The translations under genes and the position numbers were made by a program. Source: Terebella lapidaria (Eukaryota > Annelida > Polychaeta > Terebellida > Terebellidae). Taken from it: a DNA stretch of 64,000 nucleotides. The stretch is from contig OX424569.1 of NCBI GenBank assembly GCA_949152475.1, forward strand, positions 18,451,170 through 18,515,169, read 5' to 3'. Below the pieces are notes generated by a model, which was given only the letters and a program-made list of their open reading frames with translations, did not search any database and had not been told where the DNA came from. Below, piece after piece: positions 11,897 through 39,770 of the stretch (its first letter is position 1; the number at the start of each line of letters is the position of its first letter).

Positions 11897-11945
11897 AAAT
11901 AGTGACTTGATTTGGGGAAAAAAAGTTTGCCAACCCATCGAAAAA

Positions 11946-13260
11946 TTAGCCCAAAGGCTAAGATAGGTTACCGGACAATTTTGGTTTGGCCATGGCAGCA
12001 TTGGCAGGTAACAGACCTTGAGATTTACCAATCAAGGTTCGCAGTGTAAACATATGACCTTGAGATTTACCAATCAAGGCCATCCGTGTGAACTTTGATG
12101 TCACCATTACATGTATGTGTGCGGCATTTGATATTCTATATGTTCATAATACAAAGATATATCTGGGTGGAATCGTTTAAGCCGCTCAGGTCAATTTACA
12201 CATTCCAAGTCAGACATTTGGCACTCAAGGTCATCTGACGTCAAGTTCATCATTAGTTGTGCCATATATGTCTTGCTATATGTTCATAATGCAAACATGA
12301 GCTCTATCTGCAAGCATTTCATCTATAGAGGCAAATCTGGGCATTTTTTGACCCCAAAATGGCTGTTTTTGACCTTTCAAGGTCATCGAAGGTCAAATTC
12401 AAGATCACCACACAAGTCGCCATATGACTTCCCATTTGAAAGTGCCAATTTCTAAGCTCTATCTTCAGGCGTTCTATGAGTACAGTCCCGACAGCTCCCA
12501 TTATGAAGGAAAATTAAAAGGTGATGAATCTGGAATAGGCCCATGAAAGTTTAAAATTGGGTCTTTAGGGCACAGATTTTGAGCCCTTCGAGCAATTCGA
12601 GGCAATCATTCTTCAAAGATATCATCATCAATGTGAACTGTCATCCACATGTGAAATTAGAAGGAAAGTTACTGAAGAGATTCCGAGAAATGGGCGAAAA
12701 AGTTAAATTTTCACATTTTCTGGCCTTTTGGGCCTAGATTTTGGGCCTTTTGAGTGATTCAAGGCCTTTGACCTTCACACATCTCATCAACAGTGTGAAT
12801 TGTCATCCACATGAGAAATTAGAAGGAAAGTTACTGAAGTGATTTTGAGAAAATGTCGAAAAAGTGCAATTTCGGCCTTTTTGGACCATTTGAGCCTAGA
12901 TTTCGGGCCTTTAGAGCGATTCAAGCCCATCCATCTTGATACACGTTACGAAGGACATAATGAAGCATCTTTGTGCAAAAAAAAGAAAAAAAGTTACTGA
13001 ACAGATTTTGAGAAAATGGCCGCCAAAGTCCAAAATTTGGCCATTTTCGACGAAAACGGCCGCCATTTTGAAAATATTGTGAAAATCAAAAAACTAAAAA
13101 ATACCTCCTTCTTGAATTATTTTTGTGCATTTTTGTGCAAAATTTCGGAAAGATTGGTCCGTAAACAAAAAAGATAAAAATGTGAACGCCGACGCCGACA
13201 CCGGACGCCGGATGCAACGCCATGCCAATAAGTTATCGGACCATAGGTCCGGTAACCTAA
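11946..13260 (+). mobile_element. Complete non-autonomous element with hairpin/box termini (rolling-circle-like, tentative)
   Basis: The left end is the hairpin TTAGCCCAAAGGCTAA (11946-11961) followed by AGGTTACCGG (11965-11974). The right end is the hairpin GGACCATAGGTCC (13238-13250) followed by GGTAACCTAA (13251-13260). The right-end box is the inverse of the left-end box, so the two boxes form subterminal inverted repeats. Inside lie two half-site clusters (about 12050 and 12370), an 'aatggccgccatttt' module and a gacgccgacaccgg microsatellite before the right end. It sits inside a relative of itself. Subterminal inverted repeats with hairpins recall Helentron/HINE elements, but no helicase or Rep protein is present, so the class is an inference. 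Confidence 0.6.
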
Positions 13261-14093
13261 AAATCAAAGGCCGCCACACACAGATCGGAGAGTCAAGAGC
13301 AACGAAATGCACATCATGAAGGTACATAAGGGGAATCCTTTCGAACAAAATTCTCAAACCTGATCACACATCTTACGGTCGCCAAAGTCCGAAAATCATT
13401 GTTTTTCGACGATAAAGCACTTACGACCTTTCAAAGTCATTGAAGCTCAAATTCAAGGTAACCACTAAAACCGCAATATATAATTTCCCATTTGAATGTG
13501 CCCATATTTTAGGCTCTATCTTGGAGTGTTCTAGGAGTGTACTCCACATAGCTCCTATTATGAAGAAAAAATTGGGCGAAATTTTCATTAAAAAATAAAT
13601 TTCCAAAAGGGAAGAATTTTTTTTTTTGACTGGAAATCACTCATAACCTATAATGACTTGATTTGGGTTAAACTAAATTTGCTCGTCGACCATCAAAAAA
13701 TCCAAATAGCCGCCACTTGCAGACTGTCGATCCAAAGGCAATGAAAATTATATACAATGTATGTCACAAAGATACATAAGAGGAATCTTTCAAAATGAAA
13801 ATCTCAAACAATCTGAACAGTTTTTGAGAAAATGGCTGCCAAAGTCAGAAATTGTGTTCACAAGAAATGCTGTTTTGACCTTTCAAGGTCATTGAAGGTC
13901 AAATTCAAGGTCACCACTGAAACTGCAATATATGATTTTCCATTTGAATGTGCCAATATTCAAGCCCTATCTTGAAATGTTCTAGGAGTTTACTCCATAC
14001 AGCTCCCATAATGAAGGAAAAATTGGATGAAAAAGTCCAAAAAAGTTTTGAGGAGTGAAAAAGAAATCTAAATTCAAAGGTCCGGTAACCTAA

Positions 14094-14970: not shown

Positions 14971-17900
14971 TCACGTGACGACTTGTAGCCGCGCAACGGC
15001 CTGCGGTGGCGCCCCCATGTGTTTGTGGAGGGAGCTGTACTCTGAGATGAGGTAGTTAAGTGACTGGAGACTGTCTGTAAAGTCCGACACTTCCATCCCG
15101 TCCGTCTGTGTGTAGTGATGTACGTGCGCCTGCAACACATACCAACAGTATAATGTCATCTGAACAAGTCTCCGCAAAACCAAAACTTGTGCATTTATGT
15201 GTTAAATTGCAACATAAACTAGAACATTTCACATGTAATTGAACCTGTAATTAAAGGATACTTCAATTTTTTTTCATAAATTTTGACAAACGTGGTTTTT
15301 TATTCTCTGACACACATTGAACCATCTGACAACAGCTGATCACACGCATATTCTCGTGACCTGTCACGCTCGGACCCACCTTTCTGCGGTAGAGTTTCAT
15401 GAAGCGGTCGCGTAGAGAGGAGAAGTTCTGTGTGATGCAGGTGTTGTTAGCTAGCGTAAGGAGAGAGTACGGATGTCCGACCGGTGCCACGGAGCAGAGG
15501 CCTGTCTTCCAGCCCTCCTGGTTCCATGGGATAAAGTGGAGTGATGGTCGCAGTCTGCAAACACATGGTGCAGGATCACTGTATTGTAGTCAATACAGTG
15601 GTCTCCTTCACATAAGACCTACCTTCCTGCCACACAATTGAGGCCTTATCTAATGGGGAGTCTTATTAGACGGGTTCATTTACGTTAAAGTCATCCTGGC
15701 ACCATAGGAAGAAGTCAATACGGAGGGGGGAGTTTTATAGAGGGAGGTCTATCTCAAGGAGACCAATGTACCATACAATAATTGAACAGAGAATAATGTT
15801 CTACTAATACTGAATACTACTCTCTACTAATATTCTGTTCACAAGTTGACATGCAATTTTGAAATCTTGAAACTTGATATCTTATGATATTATGTTTGTA
15901 AAAGTGCAAAGAGAAATGTGCCTATGGAGAAATTGAACCTAATCACATCAAACTATCAAACAAAAACGTTTGTGATACATGGAGCCCTGCTGGCCGGCAA
16001 GCCCATACATGTACCACATTAAAAATGTACCAGAACGCCCTATCAATGCCGACCTGTCAATGTTTCTGCGGACGTCGGACACGTTCACATTCCCACGAAC
16101 CATCAGCGCACAGGCAAGGTACAGCGCGTGTCGTGGATCAGACTTCACCAGCTGGTGGTCAGCGGAGAACGCATCCGAAAACATCTGGTCCAGTCTGAAA
16201 CACACATTGCATTTGGAAACACCTCGTCCCAACCTGAAAGAACTTCACAAAAGACATTCACTCGGTTCAACTTGTTGATTCTGGAGTGTATATATTTCTA
16301 TTTTGGCCTGTCAGATACAACAGGACTGTCATATAGTATTATGTACTAACACCGAGCGTGATGCACAACAAGGTTGCTGTACCTGCGAGGTGGTACTCTG
16401 ATGTCTGAGAGAGCGTACAGTGGAGTCTGACTCGCCACGAGGTAGTGTAGCTTTGGAAACGGCACCAGGTTCATTGTGATCTCGTTCAAGTCAACATTCA
16501 GTGTCCCTTCAAACCGCGCTGAACTAAATACAACCAAAACAAAGCACATGCCAAACATAAATCTGCTATCACTGCCTCTCATGAAAGCTATAAACACAAA
16601 TTGATAGACTTGTGGTGTGTCTAGAAATATTGCACCACATGTTTGGTTTCAAACCTACAGCTCGAATCTCACATCTGGTACGGACATGACCCCAGACTGA
16701 CCTTGTGAGGTTGAGAAGCAAGTTGGCCACGATGTTGTTCATTCCGTCGAAGGGTTTCTCGTCACTTGGTCTGGTGACCCCACCCTCGCTTGCCGTAAGC
16801 GCGCTGTCCGCCTTCACCCGACTGCCGCCAGAGGGCGCCCCATACGTGCGCTTGCCGGTACGTCCAGCCGGCACAGCCTGCTGGATCTTACCGATAATGT
16901 CACTCAGCGCCTGGCAGGGACACACAGCGGGAAGTGTGTTCAAACAGTCCATGGCATCATTCATGATTCTCAACATCACGTATTGCTAATGGCATGTAGT
17001 ATTTTTTATGGAGTATTTTTATGAATTACTTATTGGAAATTGTTCAATGATAATGCTCAAATCAATGATAGGCCTATTTCATAGTGAAATCAATGACAAG
17101 AATCAGCATATCAAAATATGTGAATGAAGTCGGTTATCACGTGCATGGGAGTTTTACCAGCACGCTAAACTTCAATGGTTGATGAGTAAATCAGTTGATT
17201 AATGGTTTCAGTGCTTATTTTTTCACCTGATTTTCGATGGGCATGACACAGTCAGCATTCTCTGTGAGTTGGTGCATCGCGAGGACGCTGTTGTAAGGAG
17301 AGGTGACAACATCGTCATCAGCCGATGGATATACTGCCGTCACAAACCTGCCACAGGGGTAGAAGATAGGTGAAAAGCATGTATGTTGTGTGGGCATTGA
17401 GAGGGGATTCACTGAAACTATATGTCAGACTGTTGCCATGGTTACCTGTATACGTCTGGGTACTCGTCTCTAAGCAAGCTAAGGACGTATGTGCCAACAC
17501 CTGACCCTGTACCTGTATACAAAAACATGTAGAAATTGCACAACAAATACCAAAAGCTGATATTAATTGATATATTTACATATTGACACTTTGCTGAATA
17601 TTTGTTTAAGGTGCGGTATGAACCCATTAGTGAGCTACATGTATATTATATTTGAGTTGGTGCTAGGGGCCTATCTAGCCAATGAGGGGGGTTAGATCAC
17701 CATGGTGAAAGTCAAATACCGCACCTTACTCGAATATTTCCGCCTCGTCAGATGAATAAAGTACATGTCTGTCTATCATGTATAGATCATGTTCTACTAC
17801 ATGCACAGTAGGTTAAACTGCTTTTTTCATTTAATTAAAGTTGTGTCCACTCATTGTATATGAGAACAGCGGCTAACAAGGAATTGTCTCAGTGAACCAC

Positions 17901-20900
17901 ATATAAAATGGATATTCTACAGAACAAAAAATAAAAGATGACTCATTATAATTTTGGATACTTTATATATATGTTGGATGTAAATGAATAGATGCTCTTT
18001 TTGAATGGTTTATGGTGTTTTGCTCTGTTTACATGACAACCCTTCAACACTGCCTGATGTGACTAATCCTGCTCAAAGTGCTGTCAATGACACCAATACA
18101 TTAGCCTAAATACCCCCCCCCCCCCCCCCCCTGCCCAGACGAATCAATACCCCAGTGGAGCGTGGCCGTGTGTCACCAGAGTTAGCTGTTCTTGCTGCCT
18201 GAACCAATCAATAAATACCTGTCCTCCTGTGGGATTACTGCCCTCACAGCCAGGTGGAATATTTTGTTTTGATCTCAATGATCTTGGAATATTAGACATG
18301 GCGAATACCATGATTTGATCTTAGAGAACCATTCAACATTGACGGGTTTGTAAAGCAAAGTTATGTTTTTACTGTCACAAATTCAAAGAAAAACATAATA
18401 GACACAGAGGTGTCACAATGTGACTGCCAGCAGCTTGGCTGAATCAGACACAATAACATGTATCAAGTTCAGACAGGCCCAGTGTGACAGCAGTGGTGTA
18501 GAATCTGGGCTGCATATGTTATAGATAGAAGTACAATTGACATATTAAAAAGGGAAACAAGTAAGATAACTCGATTTTATCATGATTATGATATCTTGTG
18601 AATTTCTTAAATTTTTTCTGTTCTGACAGATTCACATGCCGACTTCACCAGCCGATTTGCTGGGCAAGATAGGATGAGTCAGGACCACATACAGGGTCAC
18701 TTCCTGAAAATCTGTGACCTTTGAGGACCAGTGACGTTTGACCTGACGACACCATGTCAGGGCGCAAGCTATCAGAGATCCAGGTGGACTTCCTGACGTG
18801 TAAGATCTGTCGCCTGCCGTTCGACAAGCCCAAGGTGCTGAGCTGTCTGCACACGTTCTGCAAGCGCTGCCTCGTGTCGCACGTACAGAAGAACGGCGTG
18901 CGCGGAAAAGACGGAGCTAACTGCGTCTTCTGCCCGCTGTGTACGCAGGTCTGCGACCTTCCCCGCTCCGGGATAGAGGGACTCAAGGTCAGAGCTCACA
19001 TATGCTTACTATATAGTTCAGTCTGTAGTTATTTCAGAATGATTTACATGTCGAAGAAATATCAGCAGAGATAGGTGTGGGTTATGTTGTGCCTTAATAC
19101 TACTCATCAACTGAAAACATGCCATTTAATTTGTCACCTTTGTCACCAAAATTCTTTCAATAAGCATAAATTACTTGGGCCAGAAACAGCTGTTTCTTGA
19201 ATTCATCAAGAAACAAAACCATCATAGAAACATAAATCCATGACTTGTATTTTTATTGCAATACCTAGTCTCCTGCATAAGAGCTTACTGTTACTGTGTA
19301 TATATTATATACACATGCCCATCGGTCATGTTGGTGCTGTAATAGGATTAAACAAGGCTTCGATGGGTTGTCACTACAATATTTGTACATTGACTATATG
19401 GTGACGGGTTCGAACCTGCTCAACACACAAGCATGTAAAGGGCAATCATTAGCCATGCTAACTGGCCATTCACACACAGTGCTCATCTGGAAAGAACTTC
19501 TACCATTCCTCCATATTTATGATACAAACCTGACTGTGATTCCTGTATTGGTAAGTCAGTGTTTAACACTTAAAAATGATTAATAAAACCAAATTGTACA
19601 TGGAGGCCTGTTTTCACACATGGTGGGTGTTGTGTTTGTCTAACCATGCTAACCGAGTCGTGACCAGAAAGTTTGTTTATCACAGCTATGCCATAGTTTG
19701 AATATTCTTCATTGGCATTTGACACAATGATATCATGTACTTCATGCCTTAAATTGATCTGAATGATCTGTTTTCAGTCAGATCAAGACATTGCCAACTG
19801 ATATGCTCATGTTGTTGATGGTGGAGCTGGAGCCCCTATTATAGCCACCTTGTGATGACCTGTATTCTGTCTGTTTCCAGGACAACCAGCTGCTGCGGAA
19901 CCTGTTAGAAATGGTGGGCTCCAAGTCCATGCAGAACTGTGACCTGTGCCGAGACGAGGGCGACACCCGTGCTGCCACCTACTGCTGCATCAAGTGTGAG
20001 GAGTTTCTCTGTGATGAGTGTGCAAAGATGCACAAGCGTACACGCCTGACACGCGAACATCTCGTCGTCAACATCGGCTCCATGATCGACCTCTGTCGTG
20101 GGCTACAGGGCAAAGAACAGTCCGCCAAAATCAACGCTCGACTGCTCACAAAGTTTGGTCGACATGGCAACTCGCTCAGCAACCCCATGGCAATCACCGT
20201 CAACAAAGCAGATGACATTCTGGTATCCAATGATGACCACACGATCTCTGTCTTCTCACAGTCCGGCACGTGCAAGAAAGTCCTAGACCAGACCAGCTTC
20301 TATGGCGCAGAGAAACACTCACTTCCAAACAAAGGAGTGGCCGTCACCCCCGAGGGCTACGTCGCGGTGGCAATGCGCAAGGACTTCACCCCACAGCTGG
20401 TGCACATGGGAGTGGTACAGTCCCTGGCGGGCCGAGAGATCTCCATCCTGACCGCCAAGGTCAAACATGCTGCAGACTGTCAGCCCCATGGAATCGTCGT
20501 CACCCCTAACAACCACATCGTGATCACTGATGTCGGTCGCCACTGTGTGTACGTCTTCGACTCAGAACTGCAGATGGTGAAACAGTTTGGCAAGAAAGGC
20601 AGCAAAGGTCGGCGACAGTTCAAAGGTCCTTACTACGTCTCAGCCACTCCAAACAGCGACATCGTTGTGTCTGACTATGGAAATCACACTGTCAAAGTCT
20701 TCGACCTCAAGGGCAAACCCAAGCTCGTGATTGGCCGTATGGGCAAGAATGATGGCGAGTTCATGCACCCAATGGGTGTGTGTGTGGATCGCTATGGCAA
20801 CACATTTGTAGCAGATCGGGACAACCACCGTGTGCAGATGTTTGACAGTCGTGGGTTCTATGTGGCGACAATTCTGCAGGTGTCCTGTAAGGACGGGAAT

Positions 20901-23900
20901 GACATCCGGCCTCAGGATGTTACCATGACGACTTACGGTCACTTGGCCGTGCTGCTCCGAGGTATCGAAGGTGTGGAGATGGCGGAGATACAAATCTACC
21001 AATATGGCAGTGTTCGGGCAGTCGTTCCGAGCAACCCTTCCACTGCACGGTCCAGTGTGGCGGCACAGGATTCTGCGGCTGACACAAGTGAGGGTGGGGG
21101 CACGGTGCCAAGACGGCTGCCGCCACTTAATGGCAATGGTGGCGCCGCCCTGGGAGCCACTCCAGACTTACTCCCGCCAGGTCACAAGGTCAAACCCAGT
21201 GATGATGCTACTGTACTCGCCGCTCTCTACGCAACAACAACAGGACAGCGTCTGCCCAACAACTCCGACCACAACTCACAGATCTGTACCATCCTCTGAA
21301 CCAAACTACGAAAATTCTTTGTTCAAGGTTTAATGTTGTGTAAAACAAATTTGGCATGATATTGGTTTATTCTCATTCATAAGAATATCTCTGATGTGCT
21401 TTCTCTATGTTGAATTAGGTCACACTCGACCACTGCCATACATACATATGTCTGTCGATGTGTACATACACATATTTTATTTATTACTGCCATTATATTA
21501 TGTGGATTAGAATGTAAATCATTGTGCACAAAATTTAATGATGCATTTTACATAATTTTATTGTTCAATTACCTGTATTTATTTAATAAAATATAAATGA
21601 ACAAATATATGTTTCCAATTCAATTGATTGTTGCACCATTCGAAAGCAACAAGCATATTTAGTTTCCCTAAAAACCTTTACCACATTCATTCCACGGTCC
21701 ACCACTGATGAGGAAATCATTGAGCATATCATATGAATGATTTTTCTAAACACGTTACATGTATAGGCATATACCAAAGTAAGTGTCAAGCAAAAAAATT
21801 CAATCGCAGCTACATACAAGTACTGACATCCATTATTACGGTACATAATTATGGAAGTTTTCTTTCTAAAGTACAGATCTCAAAATTAGCAAACTGGTGA
21901 CACCTGAATATGACACAATTTCTGGGCGTCACAAAAAATAGTGTATATTAGAGATGGTAACTGGGGTCAAGATCACCCCCTCCCCCTCCTTTCTTGAAAA
22001 ACATACACATCAAAGAGGGCCCCAGACCCCAGCCGTATTATCTTGCCACAGTTATCCCCAATTCATTTCCTATGGCCTAAGCCTATAAGAAGTCATGTCT
22101 ATATGGCACATCTTTTGGTGACCTTGAACTTTACCTTAAACGACCTTAAAGGCCAGATCTCAAAATCTTGCCTGACCTGACATGCGTAAATTGGCCTCTA
22201 CAGACAAAACACTTGTGAAACTTGTGATAGAGCTTATATGTTTTACTATGAACTACGTATAGGAAGTCTTATGCAGCATACCTATATCATGACTCAAATG
22301 TAATGGTGACATCGAAGTTCACAAAGATGACCTTGATTGGTAAATCTCCATGTCACCTGCAATGCTTAAAATCAAAATTGTCCGGTAACCTATCTCAACC
22401 CTTGGGCTAATTTTTTGTTGTAATCACAGAATGTTTTGATAAGATATCACAAGTTTTTCTTACAAACCTATGAATATGATGAATACCACAAAGGATTACA
22501 AATCAGAACACAGACACACAATACTTTTGACCACTGCCTGTATCTCTGGGCTGTTCCAATAGTCATCGTCAAGTTTCCTGTCATCAAATTTTTAACGACT
22601 ATACTATTGGAATCGAAGAGTGACATAACTAAATTTCATATTATACTGCGGTAATATTGGTATTTCAATAATCCTCTTGAATTATGTAAATTCAATAAAA
22701 ACGCTGTGCCAATCTTTCTTTTTGCAATTGACTCGCGAAGAGGGGGGATTCCCACGAATGTAACAGCCGAGTATCCGGTTGTAAACAAAAAAGAATGACT
22801 CGATCGCGTCTTGCATGATGAAAAGTTTAATTCGAATTTATATCGATGGTTTTAAAACATTACATAAACGCAAACTTGATCAGGTATGTCGGAATTCAAT
22901 GTTAGCATAATCTGCTTCTATTATTATGTGAGAATCTGGCGGAATTAACTGAACTTTTTGCGAAAACATTCTTGGTCCAAGTGATGCCTGGGCGATAATA
23001 GAGTTTTGTGATGCTTACCGGTACTGGGTTGAATCGAACAGACTAATTATTCGTTGCATTTAAATCAATGTTATATTTGGCAACTTCGGATGTGTTTTTC
23101 ACCTTTTCAAAAAAAAAAAATGGGGCTTAGCGATTTATAGGGTATAACAGTATAATCATAATCCTTCAAGTTCAAAAAAATCTATGTCACTACAGACTCA
23201 GAGCATGATAGCACCCAGCCACCAGTTTTCCATAAAATGAAGCTGAACAGGACCCCTGTCAATTTAGCCCGTTTTCAGATCGCAATTGCCCACCTAGCAT
23301 ACACATTACATACAGCAAAACCTTTCTCTACTCCAAATTCCGGGAAATACCATCGGGATTTTTGCTTTTCCCAAAACCAGACTTCCACATGCGCATAATA
23401 AGCCAGCACGTGGATCAATATTGCTTCGTGTTGTCTCCCTAGACAACCATACATCTGGCGACATGACATCACTTACAACGGAATCCTCAATGTGTGAGGC
23501 TTCCCCAAATCTATTCCTGGTTTGTACCCTACTAGCGCCAGCTGATTGGCGGATGTGACGATAGGCCCGTCTTTTTTATTCAGTCGATATTACATACCCA
23601 TTACAAGTAATAATATTTGCAAATGACTTCTTTCATATCCTACATTTTCTCTGTTTATCAGGTACCCAGAAGCCAGATGTCACTGAACTCCAGTAGGCAT
23701 GGCGTCCGCAAGTCCTGAGGCTCAGATTGTCTCCCGAATCAAACAGGACCACCTCAACTGTCAGATTTGCCAGTGCCGCTATCGTCTTCCCAAAGCTCTG
23801 CCTTGTCTTCACACATTTTGTGCTCAGTGCTTGCAGGACTTTGTGCGCAGTCGGAACTATGAGGACATCGGACACTTTCCGTGCCCTGTCTGTCGGGTAT

Positions 23901-26900
23901 CTGTAGATTTACCTGAGGATGGAGCTGTTGGTTTCCCTGACAACCATTTTATTGTGACCCTGATGGACACCGTACAGCTGGATGATGGGGGAGGTTCAGC
24001 ATCTGGGTCACTTTACCCAAATCTTGACTGTCTCATGCTGGAAAATGGACTTTCTGAGGAGTGTAAAGGGGCAGCACAAGCTGGAAAGCCCACTCCACCC
24101 ACAGGTGTGAATCACCGCACAAACGGAGCTCCCCCAAAACCTCGGCGTCTGCTGCCTCCAAGAGCTACACCCCCCAGCCGAGGAACCCCACCGGCTCGAC
24201 CGAGCCCCCCTCGGCCTAGTCCACCCGTCAGGTCACCCCGTGGGAATCCTCTGTCCCCACGGTCACACCAGCCCAGGGGGACACAAGCACAGCCACAGAG
24301 CACGGCTCCTGTCCAGCGAAGACTTGTCCTTCCCGGGGAGTCGTACCCAGTACCGGTGGTCTTCAATAAACATGGAGCTGAGGTCTCGTTTGGACAGTAC
24401 GGGCCAGGACTGTCAGAGTTCCAGAAACCTGTCGGTCTTGCCGTGTCACCTGAGGGTCACATCGTCGTCGGCGACCAGCGCGATAACAGAGTGTTCATCT
24501 TTGAACGCTCGGGCAAACTCAAGACGATTTTCACTTGCCAAGGGGTGATACAGGACCTGTCCATCAACTCCAGGGGTTTGATTTATGTGGCGAACATGCA
24601 AGCCAAGCGTTCACTGGTAACGTGTTATAACTCGCGTGGACATACCGTTGCAAGTCTCGGGAGCTTCTTTACCTTTGAGAAGCCACACGGAGTCGCTGTT
24701 ACTGAGGACAACCACATGGCTGTGACCTCAACAGACACTCATCAAGTTTATTTGCTCAACGAGTATGGCAAAATGACTCACAAGTTTGTCGGCAAGGGGA
24801 AAGACGGCAAACGATTGAACTACCCATACCATGTTGCTGTCACCAGCAAAAATAGGATAGTAGTCTCCGACTATGGCAACGATTGTATCAAAGTTTTTGA
24901 CAACACGGGCAAGTGTAAGTCGCAGTTTGGGAAGTATGGGCTGAAGCCTGGTCACTTGAATGGTCCGCGGGGTATCTGTGTAGATCGCCGTGACAATGTG
25001 CTGGTGGCTGACAGCAGGAACCATCGCGTCCAGGTCTTCACCTCCAAGGGCCAGTTCCTCTCAGTCGCCATGGAGATTAGTCGGGAGGATGCAGGTATCG
25101 GAGCCTGTCCCATGAATGTTGCTGTGACGACAGACTCTCGCTTGGTTGTGTTGTTTTCTGGAGGTAGTTTTGCTCAGGTTCGGGTTTATCCGTACAGCGT
25201 GTGACAGTTCACAAGTTTTTAATGTACTGTCTCAATGTTTCCATTTCAAAATTGTGTGCTAAAAATGTGCCAGACCTACTAATTTGAAGTGAAATTTCTT
25301 CACTTCACTTACAACATGCTCAAGTTTCTTTCCCTATTTGCGAGTTGAATCTCTTTAGAAGAACGTGTCCTGTAATGGAGGTTTCCTGTCAACTGATCTG
25401 CAATTATGTAAATGTCTAATGTATAAAACCATTCTACACTGTGATAACATAAATAATGCTACACTGCAGTTACGTATTGAATTTAAACATGTGTAAATAA
25501 TGTAATAATGTACAGCGTGTTAATATTAACGTTCATGAAATCACTGCTGTTCAATATCACTTCTTCTCAAAATGTTGTGATCATTTAGAAGTGAAGAAAT
25601 CCAATGGGCAATTGTACATATCATGCATATGTAGTTTACTAAGTTTATATACAGGACTCACACACTGCGAACTGTGTCATGTATATCGAAGGGCACAATG
25701 CTATAGATGCATCAGTTAATACTAAAAAAAAGTGTGAATGTAAGATGCACAAATCCACCTGGTATTTAAGTTAACATATATTCAAAATCACAGAAAATGC
25801 ATATCTATTATCTTGTACAATGTACTACATGATTGTTACATGTACCCACGACACAATCAATGTGAATCCTGGTCTGTTTAAAGAGTAATATTCTGTATTT
25901 TTTAATCAATAGTCAATGTTATTCACAGAATGCATTTACTTTGACCTTGTTTACACAAATAATGCCTTATAAACATTGTGAATGTTTTCATGTATGTCTT
26001 CATGAATGTTTTCTTAGTCCTCGTGTATCTGGAGCATTTTAAACCAACATGTGTTCGTCAGCTGCTGAGATATTTGAACAGTTTTTTCAATCAATACTGC
26101 CCAGATGTGTTCATGTTCATACATTGTAAATTACAACACATATTTTTTTATACATATGTATTTGAATATTTTGTGCAATATACATATACTGAGTAGTTTT
26201 AATTAAAGAATCCTTTTTATCCAAGTAGGTTTTATTTTTAGGAGAAAAAAGTGCAAATGAATGTGTTTCAGACAGGTTGAATTTTTTCGAAAATGTAGAA
26301 TCCAATTATGGAATGCAGGTTTCTTCATTTTTTTGAATTTTTTTTTATCATCATAAATTTGAGAAATTTTTACACATTTGGCTCCAAAATGTATTTATTG
26401 ATATATATTTCATTCTGTATTATGTGTACAGTTACAATAAATATTGTTAAATAAATCTTATTTTTTTGTGTGCATGTACATGAGTGAAACAATATTCCCT
26501 TCTTATTGGGATAATGTTGGGATGTCATGTTAAATGAACTCCTTCAATGCCATGAAAATACCTGAGATTTAACCGTGAACCTGGCAGATAGACATTGGAG
26601 TTTGTGCTCACTCATCTGAGATGACATCAAACAGAACACAAGTCATACAAGCTACAGTTACCATGGTTACTGACCTCCGCCCATGGAATGCAGGACGAAG
26701 AAGCACTGGAGACAGTCGCAGGCCTCGGCCGACTTGCGCACCACCTCCGAGATTTGGTCGTGGTACTGTGGTCCGTACATCTTGTGTCCCACTGACCTGC
26801 CACATATACAGTAACCATGGTAACACAGGCTATGTGGGAGTGGCTGGAGACATCTCTAATGTTAAAAAGTTTAAATAGGAGTACTGAGAAGATGTGATTG

Positions 26901-29900
26901 AATGGTTGATGAAGCTGGGCACTAACCAATTGTTTCCAGACCCAGACACGTCTGAGATGAGCTGTCTATGGTCAAACACGTCACGGAGTGGACCTTTCAG
27001 TGTTTCACTGAGAACCCCCTCCTCCATGTCCACCAACACCGCCTTAAACGCAACAACACCGCCTCAAACTCATGTATGTACCAAATTTGAAGTCATGATA
27101 GTAAACCGTTATTATATATCAATGTTGACGAAAAATATATATACAATGGTCTCCCTCAGACAAGAGCCCCCTCAAAAGACTCCCCCCTCTGTAAAGACTT
27201 TTCCTTATAGTGCTAAGATGACCTTGCCATGTAAATGAACCCTTCTAATATGACTCCCCCTTAGATAAGACCTCAATTATGTCGCAGAAGGTTAGGTCTT
27301 ATATCTGAGGAGTACCACTGTTAATCTTTCCACATAAAATAGACACATCATCAGTATTGTAAGAAAAAGGAACAGGATCACATATGATACAAATCTTACT
27401 CTGGCTTTGAGTGACTTGATTTTCCCTTTGGAATTCCCCAGAGGAATATCCACGACATCATCATAGCGGGTGTCGACATTCCTGAAGAAACTGCTCATCG
27501 ATTCATCATAAACTCCTTGCTGTTTGATCAAAAGAATGACAGTGAACATCACATTTCTCACATTTATAGTGATCAAGTCATACAAAAGAAATTAAAGACA
27601 TCTCAATTGGTAATCATGTACTAGTATGACTGGCATGCTGAAGCATTTCAGTACTGGTATAGGCTCATGCAGGACGATGAGCATTGTCTCTATATCACAA
27701 CAGAGAGATGTTGCTCCTCATCCTGCTGCTGCAGCATGTTTTACATTGCCAGTGTTTAATTTCTATCGATAGTACTGATAACATGTACAGATAGCTATTC
27801 AAAATTAAATTATATTATTGTCTTCGATCCCTTTCCTGGCGACCACCAGTTTTTGTTTTCCGATGTTTTTCTCAACTGAGAGGTTTGTTAAGGACTCAAG
27901 AATCAAAACACAAAACGCACACTTACATAATCCATTTAATCATGATAATTAATAATGTGCAGTTACACTAACCTTGTTGACGGCAGCATGTTCACGAAGA
28001 GCCAAATCCCAGAATCGACAGCCGATCTGGTTCCCACACTGGCCAACTGTTTGGAAGCAAACACTATTACAGACTGGACAATTAAGTCAATCATTCTGAT
28101 GTCAGCATTTTGGTGTACATGTACATGCACCAATTTAAGGCTTAGGTTGTTGAGAGAGCTAAACATATAATGATCAGAGTCGTGTTTCTCCAGAATGTTT
28201 GTAAGTGAGACAATTAGGTTTGGGGTGCGGTGACCTCGGCCCATGGTGATCTCGGACCAGTGACTTCGGCCCACCCAGTAGATTGCAAATATTGTAACTG
28301 TTAAACGCCTACATGAGCACATCAAGCAAACTGCTAAACAAGGTTCTCGGTAACATGAGCAGATCCAATTTGAATTGCAATTCACATACCTGGGATGCCT
28401 TTATTGAGTCTCAGTTTCAAATGGTTATTGAAGTATCATAGAGTCAGTTCAATTTATGTGCTATTGTGCTTTCCAAATTCAAAATTGTCACCCGACGGGG
28501 GATGGGGAAGACAGGCAGAAATCTGATTACTATTATTATATATTATTATTCATTCATATATCTTTATTTCCAACATACAAAATTAACAATATGTTAATAT
28601 CAAATGAACTTCAAAATGAACACTTTACAGGATAAAAAAAAATATAACAGAAAAAAATAACATAGCACCAAGGGTGCTGTAGCTTACCGGCAATCATGTG
28701 AATTGCATAGAATACTGTATACACATAAATTGTTACACTGATGTTAAAATCAATACGTTAAAACATCTTCGTAAATGTTGATAGAAACACATTTTCTGTA
28801 TGGACTATAATACGAAATCAAGTTACATCTTGAAATATTTTTTTTGTTAATGACAAATTTTCACAGATAGTTGATTCAAAGGCAACAAAACTTATACACA
28901 TCACAAACGTACATAAGGATAATCTTATACATGATTTTGAGGAAAACTGTCTGAATAGATTTCGATAAAATGACCACCAAAAGCAAAATTCATCATTTTT
29001 TCGACGAAAAAGGTCGTTTTGACCTTTCAAGGTCATTGAAGGTCAAATTCAAGGTCACCACTCAAACCACTATATATGATTTTCCATTTGAATGTGCCAA
29101 TACTTAGACTCTATCTTGAAGTGTTCTATGAGTTTACTCTGCACAGTTCCCATTATGAAGGAAAAATTGGGTGAAATTTTCTAAGTCCAAAAAATTTTTC
29201 AATGGCCAAAAAAAATTTTTTTTTTTTTTTGCTGGAAATGGCTCAAAACGAATAGTGACTTGATTTGGTCCAAAAAAGTTTTTTTCGCCGACCCGTCAAA
29301 AAATCAAAATGGCCGCCACACGCAGGCCGGCAATTCAAGGGCAACGAAACTTATACACGTCATAAAGGTACATGAGAAGAATGTTTTGAAACAAAAATCT
29401 CAAAACTGATCAGACAGTTTTTGAGAAAATGGCCATCAAAAATCCAAAATTGGCCATTTTTTGACAAAAAAGGTCGTTCTGACCTTTCAAGGTCATTGAA
29501 GGTCAAATTCAAGGTCATCACTCAAACCGCAATATATGATTTCCCATTTGAATGTGCCAATACTTAGGCTCTACCTTCAAGTGTTCTATGAGTTTACTCT
29601 GCACAGTTCCCATTATGAAGGAAAATTGGGTGAAATTTTCCCAATGGCCAAACAAAATTTTTTTTTTTTTTTGCTGGAAATGGCTCAAAACGAATAGTGA
29701 CTTGATTTGGTCCAAAAAAGTTTTTTTCGCCGACCCGTCAAAAAATCAAAATGGCCGCCACACGCAGGCCGGCAATTCAAGGGCAACGAAACTTATACAC
29801 GTCATAAAGGTACATGAGAAGAATGTTTTGAAACAAAAATCTCAAAACTGATCAGACAGTTTTTGAGAAAATGGCCATCAAAAATCCAAAATTGGCCATT

Positions 29901-31417
29901 TTTTGACAAAAAAGGTCGTTCTGACCTTTCAAGGTCATTGAAGGTCAAATTCAAGGTCATCACTCAAACCGCAATATATGATTTCCCATTTGAATGTGCC
30001 AATACTTAGGCTCTACCTTCAAGTGTTCTATGAGTTTACTCTGCACAGTTCCCATTATGAAGGAAAATTGGGTGAAATTTTCCCAATGGCCAAACAAAAT
30101 TTTTATTTTTTTTTGCTGGAAATGGCTCAAAACGAATAGTGACTTGATTTGGGACAAAAAAAATTTTTTTCGCCGACCCGTCAAAAAATCAAAATGGCCG
30201 CCACACGCAGGCCGGCGATTCAAGGGCAACGAAACTTATACACGTCATAAAGGTACATGAGAGGAATGTTTTGAAACAAAAATCTCAAAACTGATCAGAC
30301 AGTTTTTGAGAAAATGGCCTCCAAAGTCCAAAATTGGCAATTTTTCGTCCAAAATGGCCGCCAAATAGGCAAAAACGATTCAATCAAAAAAATTAAAAAA
30401 ATTTTTTTAGATACTGGCCCAAGGTATGTTCTGACAAATTTATGGGGAAATTCATCATGTCAAAACAAAGTTACAGACCCGGACGGACGACGGACGGACG
30501 ACGGACGAAATACCACGACAATAGCTTATTGGCCCAAAGGGCCGGTAAGCTAATAAGTGGATCAACAAAATGAGTGATAGGCCTATTTTGAACAACAAGA
30601 AAAATGATGCACAGACGTATTAAAAAAGACCAACAAATACTGTGGAACTTATGTAGGCCATAGATATTAGTTGGGACAGGGACCGGTTGAGGCATTGATT
30701 GCCTTCGGTGATTTCGTTATAGGCTAACATAATGAAATATCGCCGTAGCAGGGCGGGCCAACATCACCGGTCTGTTGAAGGGCGGGCCGACATCACCGGG
30801 CCGAGGTCATCATGGGCCGAGGTCAGCTATAGTGTTAGGTTTCATCGCGATACAATATTATACCGGCAGGCTTCTCATATTTGAGTTTAGGCTAATTCAG
30901 GGGAGGATCATGGCTGCATGGGTCATCAGCAATTATACATAACACAAAACTAGCCCCAGTGGTGACCCTGTACACAACTATTTTATATCTGATGTTTATG
31001 TTGTTGTGTCACACAACAACATAAACATCAGATATAAAATAGTTGTGTACAGGGTCACCACTGGGGCTACACAAAACAAGACTAGACGTCTATATAAAAT
31101 GAAGGTATCAGACAAAGACTGAGTTGCATGCATGGTGACCTCATCAGGGAGGGTCGAGGGTCTTCATGATGTAGTGTTACAGCCTCCGGCGCTCCGCGTC
31201 GCTCAGGCTGGTAGTGGTACCAGGGTACTACTACTGTAGTGTTAGTGACGGGTACTATACTATGATGGATGAAACACGAGGAACCTCAAACCCAAACTGC
31301 AACGAGAGTCTGGGGAGTGGGGCAGTAACTTTGGGCTCTTGTCACATGTTTGACGTTGCATTTTACAATACATACTAAAATCACAGTAGTACCTTGCACC
31401 ACTATAGACTGTGTCAT
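14971..31417 (-). CDS. TUBE1: Epsilon-tubulin, 12 coding exons
   Basis: Epsilon-tubulin is a centriole/basal-body tubulin needed for stable triplet microtubules. Exons (minus strand, first to last): 31393-31417, 27973-28046, 27400-27519, 26927-27042, 26675-26796, 17446-17512, 17227-17347, 16702-16910, 16383-16523, 16054-16194, 15380-15554, 14971-15129. All junctions are GT-AG and the phases join to 489 residues plus TGA, close to the ~475 of vertebrate TUBE1. Visible landmarks are the start MTQSIVVQ, then GQCGNQIGCRFWDLALREH, SSFFRNVDTR, GSGNNW, the nucleotide-binding loop GGGTGSG (about residue 152, split by intron 5), DEKPFDGMNNIVANLLLNLT, LDQMFSDAFSADHQLVKSDP and the C-terminal ALMVRGNVNVSDVRRNIDR. 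The first coding exon is only 25 nt. Intron 5 (9.2 kb) hosts two genes on the other strand. Identity is certain from family knowledge; exon 1 rests on the match of its eight residues and on phase. Confidence 0.95.
18115..18131. repeat. Poly-C tract
   Basis: An uninterrupted C run of about 17 or more bases in TUBE1 intron 5, upstream of the first nested gene. The exact length is probably unreliable. Confidence 0.8.
18636..18724 (+). promoter_or_regulatory. Two overlapping uORFs in the leader of the first RING/NHL gene
   Basis: After a splice acceptor (ttctgacag at about 18621-18629) the leader has ATG at 18636 with a stop at 18675-18677 (13 codons). A second ATG at 18674 has its stop at 18722-18724 (16 codons). 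The stop of the first and start of the second overlap as ATGA. The main start follows at 18754. Such a layout is expected to lower or regulate translation of the main frame; this is inference. Confidence 0.5.
18754..21299 (+). CDS. RING / B-box / NHL protein of the TRIM type, two coding exons, C-terminal CaaX
   Basis: Coding exons 18754-18987 and 19881-21299 (GT-AG, phase 0) give 550 residues. Residues ~15-65 are a C3HC4 RING finger (CKICRLPF...CLHTFCKRC...CPLC), the hallmark of E3 ubiquitin ligases. Residues ~95-135 are a B-box-type zinc finger (CDLC...CCIKCEEFLCDECAKMH...REH). Residues ~165-450 hold NHL repeats (NPMAITV, HGIVVTPNNHIVITD, DYGNHTVKVFD, HPMGVCVDRYGNTFVADRDN), which form a propeller for protein or RNA binding. 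The last four residues are CTIL, a good CaaX geranylgeranylation box. A leader exon precedes the start. The closest known families are TRIM2/3/32/71-like and invertebrate nhl genes; orthology cannot be set here. Poly(A) signal AATAAA at 21585-21590. It lies wholly within TUBE1 intron 5 on the opposite strand. Confidence 0.9.
21591..23670. other. Spacer between the two nested genes
   Basis: No coding exon recognised. It holds a diverged piece of the half-site-rich repeat family at about 22080-22410. The end of the spacer carries the acceptor 'tctgtttatcag' (about 23651-23661) for the leader of the next gene. Confidence 0.5.
22080..22410 (-). repeat. Left end of a half-site-rich element, minus orientation
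   Basis: Reading the minus strand from 22410: the hairpin-like TTAGCCCAAGGG, then AGGTTACCGGACAATTTT, the same left terminus as at 11946 and 3762. It is followed by TGACCT/AGGTCA-like blocks. Only this end is clear; the rest fades toward 22080. Confidence 0.55.
23677..23718 (+). promoter_or_regulatory. uORF overlapping the start of the second RING/NHL gene
   Basis: An ATG at 23677 opens a 13-codon frame that runs over the main start (23699) in another frame and stops at 23716-23718. A ribosome using it would bypass the main ATG, so it could restrain translation. Inference from position only. Confidence 0.45.
23699..25204 (+). CDS. RING / proline-rich / NHL protein without B-box, single coding exon
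   Basis: 501 residues in one exon, preceded by a leader spliced at 'ctgtttatcag'. Residues ~20-68 are a C3HC4 RING (CQICQCRYRLPKALPCLHTF, then CAQC...CPVC), implying E3 ubiquitin ligase activity. Residues ~135-210 are a Pro/Arg-rich linker with many PxxP cores (PPRATPPSRGTPPARPSPPR), a likely SH3-type docking region and probably disordered. Residues ~215-500 are NHL repeats (FGQYGPGLSEFQKPVGLAVS, DYGNDCIKVFD, GPRGICVDRRDNVLVADSRN). The NHL part resembles the upstream gene closely, so the two are probably tandem duplicates. This one lacks the B-box and the RING/B-box intron. AATAAA signals lie at 26436-26441 and 26450-26455, still inside TUBE1 intron 5. Substrates cannot be inferred. Confidence 0.9.
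   Translation: MASASPEAQIVSRIKQDHLNCQICQCRYRLPKALPCLHTFCAQCLQDFVRSRNYEDIGHFPCPVCRVSVDLPEDGAVGFPDNHFIVTLMDTVQLDDGGGSASGSLYPNLDCLMLENGLSEECKGAAQAGKPTPPTGVNHRTNGAPPKPRRLLPPRATPPSRGTPPARPSPPRPSPPVRSPRGNPLSPRSHQPRGTQAQPQSTAPVQRRLVLPGESYPVPVVFNKHGAEVSFGQYGPGLSEFQKPVGLAVSPEGHIVVGDQRDNRVFIFERSGKLKTIFTCQGVIQDLSINSRGLIYVANMQAKRSLVTCYNSRGHTVASLGSFFTFEKPHGVAVTEDNHMAVTSTDTHQVYLLNEYGKMTHKFVGKGKDGKRLNYPYHVAVTSKNRIVVSDYGNDCIKVFDNTGKCKSQFGKYGLKPGHLNGPRGICVDRRDNVLVADSRNHRVQVFTSKGQFLSVAMEISREDAGIGACPMNVAVTTDSRLVVLFSGGSFAQVRVYPYSV
28664..30553 (+). mobile_element. Element with hairpin/box termini and near-identical ~442-bp tandem units
   Basis: The left end is the hairpin AGCACCAAGGGTGCT (28664-28678) followed by GTAGCTTACCGG. 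The right end is the hairpin GGCCCAAAGGGCC (30531-30543) followed by GGTAAGCTAA (30544-30553). The terminal boxes are inverses of each other. Inside are about three units. The last two (starting near 29443 and 29885, period 442) look nearly identical by eye, and an earlier one is more diverged. Each unit has the half-site cluster, the 'ttgaatgtgccaatacttagg' block (at 29546) and the 'atggccgccacacgcaggcc' block. A gacggacgacgg microsatellite precedes the right end. It lies in TUBE1 intron 1. No protein is encoded. Confidence 0.7.
30951..31069. repeat. Perfect 119-bp palindrome with 8-bp flanking direct repeats
   Basis: Two 59-bp arms (30951-31009 and 31011-31069) are exact reverse complements around one central C. 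Each side is flanked by CACAAAAC (30943-30950 and 31070-31077). The arms start TAGCCCCAGTGG. This fits a small hAT-like fold-back element with an 8-bp target duplication. A template-switch event or an assembly or library hairpin artefact is the alternative. Confidence 0.7.
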
Positions 31418-31978
31418 GACATCTCCTTTGACATTTCTCTTTCCACGTGCTGTTGATTTTGGCTCTCGTTTTCTCAACCAATCACATTGCTTTGTTTTGT
31501 TTACTTCCGCTGTCAATTGAACCAACTAAAGTCCGTCATGAACTAGATGTACTCGGTCGATATGTTTCCAAAGAGTTTACCACAATGCTTTGATGTTTCC
31601 CTACAATAACGCAAAATCCATCAGCCGATAACTAATGAAAAGAAAAATAAACCTTATGTAAATGTATTGAAATTTTTACATGTATATTGGAAAAAAACTC
31701 ATAAAATATAACAATATTAAATTGATATCATATTGGGCCTACAACTAAGAAAAAATATGGGCTACATTTTGAAAGATTAAAATGGAAGAAATTCATAGTA
31801 GATTATATGTCAGGCCGTTAAAAATAATCAAATATTTCTTTTTGCCTCCGTTGCTCTTAGTAAAAAGAAAAAGAGTTCCCCTGCCTGCACTCCCGGAGAG
31901 TGTAACGAGTAGGCTAAGGGGCAGCTAAATAAAAAATAATTGGTATATTTTTCTGTATATATTTTTTTTTCATATATA
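31418..31978. promoter_or_regulatory. Upstream region of TUBE1, up to the Gypsy insertion
   Basis: About 560 bp between the TUBE1 start codon and the left LTR. It must hold much of the proximal TUBE1 promoter or leader. I see no reliable TATA box. AT-rich with no open frame. Confidence 0.35.
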
Positions 31979-32841
31979 TGTGGCGATTTTGCCCTAAGCA
32001 CGCGGCAGGTGATTGTAAACATAAATGCCATTTATGTGGCCTTTTCGTACTTGGCCTTGTTTTGACATGCTCCGTTCGAGCGTGCGTTGCCACGGCGACG
32101 TATTGTAATTTACGCTCCAGTAAACTATAACAATGGATCGATTAAACCTCGCGTGCGTCCTACAGCTTGTGGTGTATTATATATACACTGGAAGCTACTC
32201 GATCGAGGAGATTGTCCGAGAGAGAGTGAACAGGACGCACGCAAGGCTCGCCATGAGCTTTGCGTTCCCTGGTCAGGACTAGTGGGCTCTTAGAGCCCTG
32301 GGGACGATTTCCATGGGGAGGCCCGGGCTGGGAGAGACAAGTTGCTGACTCGGGGGCGTAAGCCCTGTGGATCGCCAGTTCTCTCCCTTCCCGGGACGTG
32401 TGACACAGGCTCTGGCAGACCGTCGGGCTGGCTCAGAGTTCTATCTCTGTGACAGTGCCTTCGGCGAGACCGGCCAGCAACATGCCCACGTGTACGTGCT
32501 CCGTGGAGCCGCTCCATGGCTCCTCGGACTCTACACACGGCTACATTACCATAACGAATGTATAATGTGCATGTTGTAGATAAGGTGATGATGATGATAT
32601 GTGTTATGTTGTGATGTATGACGGCCGGACCCGTTCCGGATATGCGGAGCCCGTTCCGGATGTGCGGAGTCCCGTTCCGGATGTGCGGGACTCGTTCCGG
32701 AGCCCGTTCCGGATGTGCGGGACCCGTTCCGGATGTGCGGAACCCGCTCCGCATGTTCTGGATCCGATCCGGAGGTGCTGTTACCTGGTTGTAGTTGTTA
32801 CCGTAGAGAGCGGCGCCCTGTAGCGGGCACCGAACTTTACA
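31979..32841 (+). repeat. Left LTR of the Gypsy element
   Basis: About 863 bp, TG...CA. Its last quarter is a minisatellite of ~18-bp units around CGTTCCGGATGTGCGG (about 32630-32775). The middle section is also found, diverged and inverted, in the solo LTR at 40503-41093. Confidence 0.9.
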
Positions 32842-32959
32842 TTGGTGCCGTGACCAGGATCAGTCCGACGGCGTCCCATTGCAGCCTAATGTCACAGTGT
32901 CGTAGCCTCCTTCGTCCCTGGGGACCCTGCGCTCCTCCGGGACCATCTCCGCACGAGAT

Positions 32960-35197
32960 ATGAGTGAGAAAGACAATGGGAGGGAAAAGGGAGGAAACGT
33001 TGCGGACCGGACCCGGTCCCGCGACGGCCGGGAGCCGCTCCAGGGTGGCTCCGGCGATGGTGCGGAGCGCGCGGAGCCCTCCGCAGACAGTACCCAGTCT
33101 GCGGAGTCGACTCCGGCGTCCGCGGCTCCGTCTCCGGACGTGGAGCCGAGCCCTGCGGGGCTGCAACATGTGTTGCCATCGAGGCCTAGTCTTGATGTGT
33201 TAGGTGCGGTTGACGGAGCTGGCAACGGCTCTACACCGCGCCTGCCCTTGTCCGGACGACGTTCGTGGCAGGCGGCGCTCTTCCAGGGGACGTCTCCAGA
33301 CGTCCGGAGATCCAGACATTCGGAGATCCGGACATCCGGAGGTCCGGACATCCGGAATAGAGTGCCAACTGCTGCGATCAATTCCGGATCTGCGGACCAA
33401 CTCCTCCGGTTACCTAACCCGGCTGGGTGGACCCCCTCGAGGGTCTCCGGCCCGGATACCGGACGGTCCGCACTGGGCGAGATGGACCAGCTCACCAACA
33501 CACTGAGTGCGCTGGCTCCTCTAGGGCGCTACGGCCGCGCCCGGTTGCCCCAACAGGGACGATCAGATCGGCGGATCCGCTCACCCTCTCCGCGGCCACG
33601 GAGCCCTTCGGGGCCCATGTCGGAGAGGGAGCAGCGGCTGATAAACATGGCGCTTGACCAGTACAAGTGCAATCAGCCAGTTCCGAGCGTGGATCCGACG
33701 ATCCCTTACAGTCCGGGGATGACTGGGCCTATGGCTCCTCCCCAAGTCCTGCCAAGTCCGCAGGCGCCAGTGGTCTCAGCAATGGGATCCGCGCCTGCTC
33801 CGCGGCTTGGAGGCACCACGCTGGCTACCGCTCTGACCGTTCCTACGGCCGGAGTTAACGCCGCGTGGTCGACTTACCCTGGTGCGCCAAGTGTGTTACG
33901 CGGGCAGTGGCAACCGGCGGCTCCGGCCCCGAGCTATGCTAGCTTTGCCGCCCCATCTGGAGCCTACCCCGTAGGTTCGATGAGAGCCCCGCCCGCACCT
34001 AGCCAGGGTGGGCTACAAGCGGGAATGTACCCGGCGGCGAGCGTGAGCTTACCTGCTCCTCCGTCCGCGGCGTCGATGTTTGCTCCGGCAGACTCCGCCG
34101 CAGGCGCAGGAAGCGCACGGAACTTGCCGCAGTACACGGACGACCCCGGAGCCGGGACCGCACGTCGGGCGCGTAGCAAACGTGATGACGGGCCCGACCA
34201 CTCTTCGTGGCGGAAACGGTTCAACGGGGATAACGCCGACTTGGAGGACTACTTGCTCCAGGTATGGCGTACCGCCGTGTACGAAGGATGGTCCCAGCAT
34301 GAAGCTGGACACGTCCTCGCGGGGAGCCTGGAAGGGAAAGCTCTCCGCGTGATGCCGTGTCTGCCGGTGGGAACAGTGACGTTCGGCGAGGTTGCTCGCC
34401 AACTTCGCCTGCTGTTCCCGCCGACGACCAATCGGCGGCAGTCTGAACGAGAGTTCAAGGCGCGTATCCGCCAGCTGACTGAGTCCGTGACAGACTATGC
34501 GTACAGCTTACGCATACTCGGCCGGAGAGCTTTTCCGGACATGGACTCCAGACGGTTTGAGACGATGCTGATCGATCAGTTCATCGATGGCCAGCCTTAC
34601 CACCTAGCGTACGGGCTGGCCACCCATGAAAAGCGATCGATGGAGGAGGCAATAGACTCCGCGCTTGCGCTTGAGATGGCTGTCCGTCCTAGACAGTTGC
34701 CTCCAGCCCTGGCTCCGGCCTCGGCTGTACCCGCGCAGGCGGCGATTCCTCCTCCGGTCAAGGCATCGCAGGTAACCCCGTGGCAGGACCCGGTCGTCCG
34801 GGAACCCGCCAGGGAACCTACCCAGCAGTGGGTTAGTGCGCCGGCACCCTCTACAGGGGCGCCCGCACATGCGGCACCGGTCGCCGCGCCGCGCTCGCCT
34901 TCGGACGAGTGCGACATGGAGGAATACGACCTCGGCGCCGCGCAGATGATTGCGCACTGCGCCGGGCTCGAGGCTCCGGGACCCGCAGAATATTGCGCGT
35001 TCACTTCCGGACCAGCTCAGAACCGTCCCTGCTACTTCTGCGGAAAGCAGGGACACTTTTGGCTGAAGTGTCCGGAGTTGTTGGAACGCCTGCGGTCGCG
35101 CGGATACCAGGGAGCTCTCCCTGGCCCGCAACGGAGGAATTCCTTCCGGTCTGGTCCTCCGGGACAGCAGAATCGGAACCCGCGACAGGGAAACTAG
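32960..35197 (+). CDS. Gag polyprotein of the Gypsy element
   Basis: A 745-residue frame. The N-terminal half is rich in Pro, Ser, Ala and Gly and of low complexity. The middle part (about residues 410-570) has the capsid-like helical character usual for Gypsy gag (SWRKRFNGDNADLEDYLLQV). A CCHC zinc knuckle, CYFCGKQGHFWLKC, lies near residue 690. It overlaps the pol frame; Ty3/Gypsy elements commonly make pol by frameshift read-through from gag. Confidence 0.85.
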   Translation: MSEKDNGREKGGNVADRTRSRDGREPLQGGSGDGAERAEPSADSTQSAESTPASAAPSPDVEPSPAGLQHVLPSRPSLDVLGAVDGAGNGSTPRLPLSGRRSWQAALFQGTSPDVRRSRHSEIRTSGGPDIRNRVPTAAINSGSADQLLRLPNPAGWTPSRVSGPDTGRSALGEMDQLTNTLSALAPLGRYGRARLPQQGRSDRRIRSPSPRPRSPSGPMSEREQRLINMALDQYKCNQPVPSVDPTIPYSPGMTGPMAPPQVLPSPQAPVVSAMGSAPAPRLGGTTLATALTVPTAGVNAAWSTYPGAPSVLRGQWQPAAPAPSYASFAAPSGAYPVGSMRAPPAPSQGGLQAGMYPAASVSLPAPPSAASMFAPADSAAGAGSARNLPQYTDDPGAGTARRARSKRDDGPDHSSWRKRFNGDNADLEDYLLQVWRTAVYEGWSQHEAGHVLAGSLEGKALRVMPCLPVGTVTFGEVARQLRLLFPPTTNRRQSEREFKARIRQLTESVTDYAYSLRILGRRAFPDMDSRRFETMLIDQFIDGQPYHLAYGLATHEKRSMEEAIDSALALEMAVRPRQLPPALAPASAVPAQAAIPPPVKASQVTPWQDPVVREPAREPTQQWVSAPAPSTGAPAHAAPVAAPRSPSDECDMEEYDLGAAQMIAHCAGLEAPGPAEYCAFTSGPAQNRPCYFCGKQGHFWLKCPELLERLRSRGYQGALPGPQRRNSFRSGPPGQQNRNPRQGN

Positions 35198-39108: not shown

Positions 39109-39292
39109 GTCCGGGGGTAGTTCCCCATTCTTCCAAAAGGGACTCTTAAAGTCCTAGTGTCTTGCGCCGTGACTTCCGGGCGTTGCCATCTTGCCTTCTT
39201 CCGGACCCCGCCATGCGAAGCCTTCGTCGGGTTTTGGCTGTTTTGGGCGCGGGCGGAACATGTTGGGGACCAACATTGTAAGAAGGGGGTAA

Positions 39293-39770
39293 TGTGGCGA
39301 TTTTGCCCTAAGCACGCGGCAGGTGATTGTAAACATAAATGCCATTTATGTGGCCTTTTCGTACTTGGCCTTGTTTTGACATGCTCCGTTCGAGCGTGCG
39401 TTGCCACGGCGACGTATTGTAATTTACGCTCCAGTAAACTATAACAATGGATCGATTAAACCTCGCGTGCGTCCTACAGCTTGTGGTGTATTATATATAC
39501 ACTGGAAGCTACTCGATCGAGGAGATTGTCCGAGAGAGAGTGATGTATGACGGCCGGACCCGTTCCGGATATGCGGAGCCCGTTCCGGATGTGCGGAGTC
39601 CCGTTCCGGATGTGCGGGACTCGTTCCGGAGCCCGTTCCGGATGTGCGGGACCCGTTCCGGATGTGCGGAACCCGCTCCGCATGTTCTGGATCCGATCCG
39701 GAGGTGCTGTTACCTGGTTGTAGTTGTTACCGTAGAGAGCGGCGCCCTGTAGCGGGCACCGAACTTTACA
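39293..39770 (+). repeat. Right LTR of the Gypsy element
   Basis: About 478 bp, TG...CA, matching both ends of the left LTR, including the CGTTCCGGATGTGCGG minisatellite. It is shorter than the left LTR. Confidence 0.9.

Follow-up and report, generated by a model that had tools for sequence, protein, structure and literature searches.

Background

The nested share of genes has been given as ~6% in the fly, 2.1% in the worm and 0.5% in human (PMC3786989), and another review puts it at ~10% in the fly and ~1% in human, two thirds of the cases being on opposite strands (PMC4394429). The opposite-strand arrangement is described as the commoner orientation of nesting (PMC4394429, PMC3192792). For C. 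elegans, 567 opposite nested pairs are reported, among them ceh-10 in polq-1, a pair in which the nested ceh-10 induces a short transcript of its host (PMC12274878). Human TRIM32, a RING/NHL gene, lies antisense within an intron of ASTN2, and the sources that describe this nesting also list it in fish-type vertebrates and give it as absent in frog (PMC8282839, PMC3933685). A single intron of human NF1 holds three genes of the opposite strand, OMG, EVI2A and EVI2B (PMC4394429), and vertebrate CENPP hosts ECM2, ASPN, OMD and OGN, which are listed as different-strand nested genes (PMC3933685).

Here we describe a stretch of 64,000 nt from the annelid Terebella lapidaria (C16:18451170-18515169, hereafter the window; genome of 761.6 Mb in 438 contigs), in which the whole coding sequences of two genes, termed G1 and G2, are found inside one intron of another gene. 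The layout, two RING/NHL genes antisense in one tubulin intron, looks real, but it is of a well-known kind. It resembles TRIM32/ASTN2 in that a RING/NHL-type gene occupies the opposite strand of an intron of an unrelated host; it differs in having two nested genes rather than one and in its host, which in the vertebrate case is an astrotactin, and no kinship between TRIM32 and G1 or G2 is implied. TRIM32 combines RING, B-box, coiled coil and NHL in a complete TRIM protein, which, going by their models, G1 and G2 would not appear to be. With NF1 the locus shares the presence of several antisense coding genes (three in NF1) in one intron, although the genes and the host are unrelated and NF1 spans 282 kb. 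CENPP likewise has multiple different-strand nested genes per host, which are leucine-rich-repeat genes as against RING/NHL genes here. The C. elegans pairs have the same topology; ceh-10/polq-1 differs in having one nested gene and a demonstrated regulatory effect, which here would be hypothetical.

Given the TRIM32/ASTN2, NF1 and C. elegans precedents, we do not share the view of an earlier, sequence-only reading of this DNA that the layout is unusual: the same gene class occurs in the same layout, several antisense genes can share one intron, and the opposite strand is the commoner choice. Among the literature matches listed we found no description of TUBE1, or of epsilon-tubulin, as a host of nested genes, which is not proof of absence.

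The host tubulin gene and its fifth intron

Placing the exons by motif and joining them gave the following host gene.

14971..31417, minus strand: TUBE1 (epsilon-tubulin-like), the host gene; 489 aa from 12 coding exons
31417-31393, 28046-27973, 27519-27400, 27042-26927, 26796-26675, 17512-17446, minus strand: TUBE1 exons 1-6
17347-17227, 16910-16702, 16523-16383, 16194-16054, 15554-15380, 15129-14971, minus strand: TUBE1 exons 7-12
17513..26674, minus strand: TUBE1 intron 5, 9162 bp, containing both nested genes

All 11 introns have GT-AG ends, the joined frame of 1470 nt (489 codons) has no internal stop, and the spliced product is a full-length tubulin with both the GTPase domain (Pfam Tubulin, 6.2e-54) and the C-terminal domain (Tubulin_C, 1.5e-29). 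The exons can thus be placed to the base, as the sequence-only reading had claimed, and its coordinates for the start of exon 1 (31417), the stop (14971), intron 5, G1 (18754-21299) and G2 (23699-25204) proved exact. Intron 5 is the longest of the introns, the remaining ten measuring 98-3346 bp. It splits codon 153, so that the exon 5/6 junction falls inside the tubulin GGGTGSG loop (residues 151-157); because the junction interrupts this loop, removal of intron 5 is needed for a tubulin, and we infer that either half of the gene alone, without the junction, could not give one. Judged from the sequence, the splice sites, the phase and the motif across the junction would demand one host transcript for both sides.

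The host tubulin is most likely epsilon-tubulin. The name rests on human TUBE1, which the host presumably resembles in its start and course. Neither Pfam nor NCBIfam returned an epsilon-specific model for the host product; NCBIfam gave it no tubulin match, and its matches to G1 and G2 were all below cut-off. In the PDB search, the 60 matches listed of 172 were all beta-tubulins, and no other tubulin match listed for the genome exceeds 50% identity to the host. A further tubulin gene lies on the strand of TUBE1 at C16:18545376-18546805 (minus strand), ~30 kb past the right end of the window.

The locus is found at ~18.45 Mb in the interior of C16, which is at least 31 Mb long, and the window contains no N. 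Genome-wide searches returned 11 exon matches of 74-98% identity at the TUBE1 locus, all others among the 90 matches listed being at most 50% identical; no second copy of the TUBE1 exons was seen among these 90, exon 1 (8 codons) being too short for detection. A 24-base stretch of intron 2, searched as a DNA pattern, had a single match, and among the matches listed both G1 and G2 are found at 100% identity in a single place of the genome. An Rfam scan of the window gave no match at gathering scores.

Two RING/NHL genes on the opposite strand

Within intron 5 we annotated two genes on the plus strand.

18754-21299, plus strand: G1, two coding exons, 550 aa; RING, B-box-like finger, NHL
18754..18987, plus strand: G1 coding exon 1, C3HC4 RING; in-frame stop at 18739
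19881..21299, plus strand: G1 coding exon 2, with a B-box-like zinc finger, an NHL propeller and a tail of low confidence that ends in CTIL
23699..25204, plus strand: G2, single coding exon, 501 aa; C3HC4 RING, proline-rich linker, NHL propeller

Both reading frames are complete and contain the whole C3HC4 RING pattern, and Pfam places an NHL propeller on the C-terminal side of both proteins (2.6e-20 for G1 and 3.6e-29 for G2), which bears out the claim of two complete plus-strand RING/NHL genes inside the intron. The RING of G1 is matched by Pfam zf-C3HC4 (2e-09), and that of G2 matches TRIM2 chains at 2e-19. The B-box-like finger of G1 has Pfam matches below the curated cut-off and matches TIF1-beta B-box chains at 1e-05 in the PDB search; for G2 no Pfam match to a B-box was listed.

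The AlphaFold2 models used 20 of the 43 distinct gathered proteins, G1 being represented by its second exon only, and have mean pLDDT values of 77.6 (G1 exon 2) and 78.2 (G2). Values are mostly <50 in the tail of G1 and in the linker of G2, where the model contains one 9-residue helix. In Foldseek the G1 exon 2 model best matches TRIM2, TRIM3 and fly Thin in their NHL domains, and the G2 model adjoins the same domains. The G1 model has a helix at residues 65-80 ahead of the propeller, and neither model has a long coiled coil linking the finger to the propeller. Going by these models, then, neither protein would appear to be a full tripartite (TRIM) protein. We also observed that G1 ends in CTIL (window 21288-21299), which we take to resemble a putative CaaX-like prenylation box of the geranylgeranyl type.

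Kinship of G1 and G2

We searched the genome with both proteins, scoring 90 of 516 first-look candidates for G1 and 86 of 1049 for G2. The 148 and 92 matches listed fall into 59 loci, which after removal of 16 duplicates gave 43 proteins; one of these, L059, lacked an NHL match and was left out, so that the tree contains 42. G1 and G2 are mutual best matches among the scored candidates, with 41-42% identity over the aligned part, and in the tree they are sisters with a support of 98/87, on long branches. Over 260 alignment columns they are 34% identical, and the tree path between them is 2.11 changes/column. The nearest outside row by path is L013, which, like TRIM2/3/71, has B-box, filamin and NHL domains, in a neighbourhood that is weakly supported; the rows are the best-scoring NHL relatives of the same genome only, and the deeper branches are weak. 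The sister placement on long branches fits one old tandem duplication, and the great divergence of the two suggests that the pair is ancient. That they are recent retrocopies of one another is rejected in view of the coding intron of G1, the identity and the path length.

The genome contains many further NHL-domain genes, with clusters of single reading frames on C1 (96 Mb), C15 (18-32 Mb) and C17 (16-26 Mb), which are probably a lineage-specific expansion.

Candidate leaders, promoters and polyadenylation signals

The following candidate elements flank the two coding regions.

18630..18753, plus strand: candidate leader segment of G1, whose predicted acceptor (18630) has a consensus score of 11.2
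21585..21590, plus strand: AATAAA, 286 bp past the G1 stop
22700..22883 (start approximate), plus strand: G2, predicted non-coding first exon or promoter region, CpG-rich; donor after 22883, score 10.0
23662..23698, plus strand: predicted second segment of the G2 leader, with an acceptor (23662) of score 12.1; in-frame stop at 23684
26436..26455, plus strand: two AATAAA, 1232 bp past the G2 stop; the second ends 220 bp before TUBE1 exon 5

By this rough score the genuine TUBE1 donors reach 4.2-9.5 and the acceptors 4.0-9.7, and sites above 6 and above 7 arise by chance at ~2.1 and 1.3 per kb. The acceptor at 23662 has the top score listed between 21300 and 23700 and, together with the donor at 22883, suggests a spliced G2 leader within intron 5. 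The CpG observed/expected ratio over 22501-23200 is 1.29-1.46, above the window's 95th percentile of 1.27; equally high patches are found elsewhere in the window, including tandem repeats and parts of a Gypsy element.

For G1 we found no convincing upstream exon or promoter inside intron 5. The sole donor near 18630 on its upstream side is weak (18560, score 8.0), and CpG ratios upstream of the gene within the intron are low (0.18-0.43). A strong acceptor with neither a good donor nor a CpG-rich patch ahead of it would fit a G1 with a non-coding first exon outside intron 5 and a first intron spanning TUBE1 exons 6-12, the genes then being interleaved and not nested; the top plus-strand donor between 10000 and 18800 does lie outside, at 10192 (score 11.2). 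Yet plus-strand donors that score at least 10 have a density of 0.17/kb in the window, the CpG-rich patch at 12801-13600 lies partly within a tandem-repeat array, and a 69-nt leader intron using the donor at 18560, or an unspliced leader, would suffice, so we consider interleaving unlikely.

The hexamer AATAAA occurs at 0.64/kb on the window's plus strand, and the copies past G1 and G2 are therefore of little weight. Of the claim that the nested genes have their own leaders and poly(A) signals, a leader for G2 is plausible and one for G1 inside the intron no more than possible, and the AATAAA are plain and common by chance.

Probable ordinary nesting and possible effects on the host

We think it very probable that the locus is a case of ordinary opposite-strand nesting, in which two independent, tandemly duplicated RING/NHL genes with promoters of their own occupy intron 5 of epsilon-tubulin. 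One ancestral RING/NHL gene would have inserted into, or been enclosed by, this intron and would then have been duplicated in tandem, the order of the two steps being our inference. The copies would since have diverged strongly: G1 has a B-box-like finger and an intron in its coding region, whereas the coding region of G2 is one exon and encodes a proline-rich linker. Each would be transcribed from a separate putative promoter on the plus strand, and the TUBE1 pre-mRNA would splice out the entire block as intron 5. The products are most likely RING-type ubiquitin ligases, with a predicted ligase activity and an NHL propeller that is predicted to bind a protein or RNA target, and a functional link to the centriole would not be required.

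As annotated, the mature mRNAs of the host and of the nested genes do not overlap. The longest perfect antisense matches to the TUBE1 coding sequence are 10 and 12 nt for G1 and G2, against means of 10.5 and 10.8 in 50 shuffles each, with G1 taken to 21620, G2 taken from 22701 with its predicted leader, and the untranslated regions of TUBE1 left out. These results weaken the suggestion of antisense pairing made in the sequence-only reading; as no match rises above chance, pairing could mainly concern nascent RNA.

Transcriptional interference with TUBE1 by the nested genes, or induction of TUBE1 by them, is possible. The last AATAAA of G2 lies so close to exon 5 that read-through past it would run across host exons. 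Nested genes can trigger intron retention or early polyadenylation of the host (PMC3192792), the protein-coding cases tabulated there being same-strand, and in worm, fly and human the coexpression of opposite pairs is reported to be lower on average than that of neighbours that are not nested, a pattern compatible with selection against polymerase collision (PMC12274878). Such observations would favour a regulatory pair, in which nested transcription controls TUBE1 through collision or through a short internal TUBE1 transcript, as ceh-10 does for polq-1. We nevertheless regard this as quite improbable, given that the antisense matches are at chance level and that, in a mixed literature, one survey described expression as uncorrelated across 109 human and 752 fly pairs (cited in PMC3192792, PMC3786989). 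It is more doubtful still that the tubulin host and the RING/NHL pair form an old conserved module; if both G1 and G2 had been in TUBE1 since an ancient duplication, transcription of the nested genes might gate TUBE1, a gene of centriole and cilium building, according to cell type, perhaps through a short transcript. An assembly artefact or split host, with the RING/NHL genes misplaced into TUBE1, was raised in the sequence-only reading as well and can hardly be credited, since the splice sites and frame are clean across intron 5, the sequence is free of N in the interior of a long contig, and the host and each nested gene have a single place among the matches listed.

Surroundings of the locus

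A young Gypsy-type LTR element (window ~31978-39771), with reverse transcriptase, RNase H and integrase, comes to within ~560 bp of the TUBE1 start codon on the upstream side. Its LTRs agree at every base of their shared parts (252/252 and 232/232 bases), the left LTR having ~385 bp extra, and by eye TATA stands at both flanks. A frame of the Tc1/mariner transposase type is found at 795-2003 (minus strand; Pfam HTH_Tnp_Tc3_2 and DDE_3). Similar long frames in opposite orientation at 45002-47881 (plus strand) and 59219-62486 (minus strand) are by eye of the tyrosine-recombinase retroelement type; for three frames from these regions Pfam gave nothing at 0.001. Arrays of tandem repeats, their periods being 134-442 bp, are present at 4673-5290, 6640-7408, 12611-12925 and 29192-30345, and a stretch of intron 5 (22298-22415) is similar to 11941-12112 and 3757-3808.

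Two other contigs of the assembly carry mitochondrial genes. C438 is a mitochondrial genome of 15.97 kb whose recognisable long frames are, by eye, all on the plus strand, in the order nad4L, nad4, (rRNA), nad1, nad3, nad2, cox1, cox2, cox3, nad6, cob, atp6, nad5, which we take to be consistent with annelids. C417 contains at ~44600-46450 (L069) an AT-rich (24% G+C) mitochondrial cox1 that reads TGA as Trp and has a large insert, adjoining a nad1-like frame; this contig presumably represents a ciliate mitochondrial genome, from a symbiont or contaminant in the assembly.

Conclusions

This locus is a further, well-defined example of antisense nesting in a host intron, here of tandem RING/NHL genes, and resembles TRIM32 in ASTN2. 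If related worm genomes share the layout, the nesting event could be dated, and whether nesting constrains or regulates the host could be tested.
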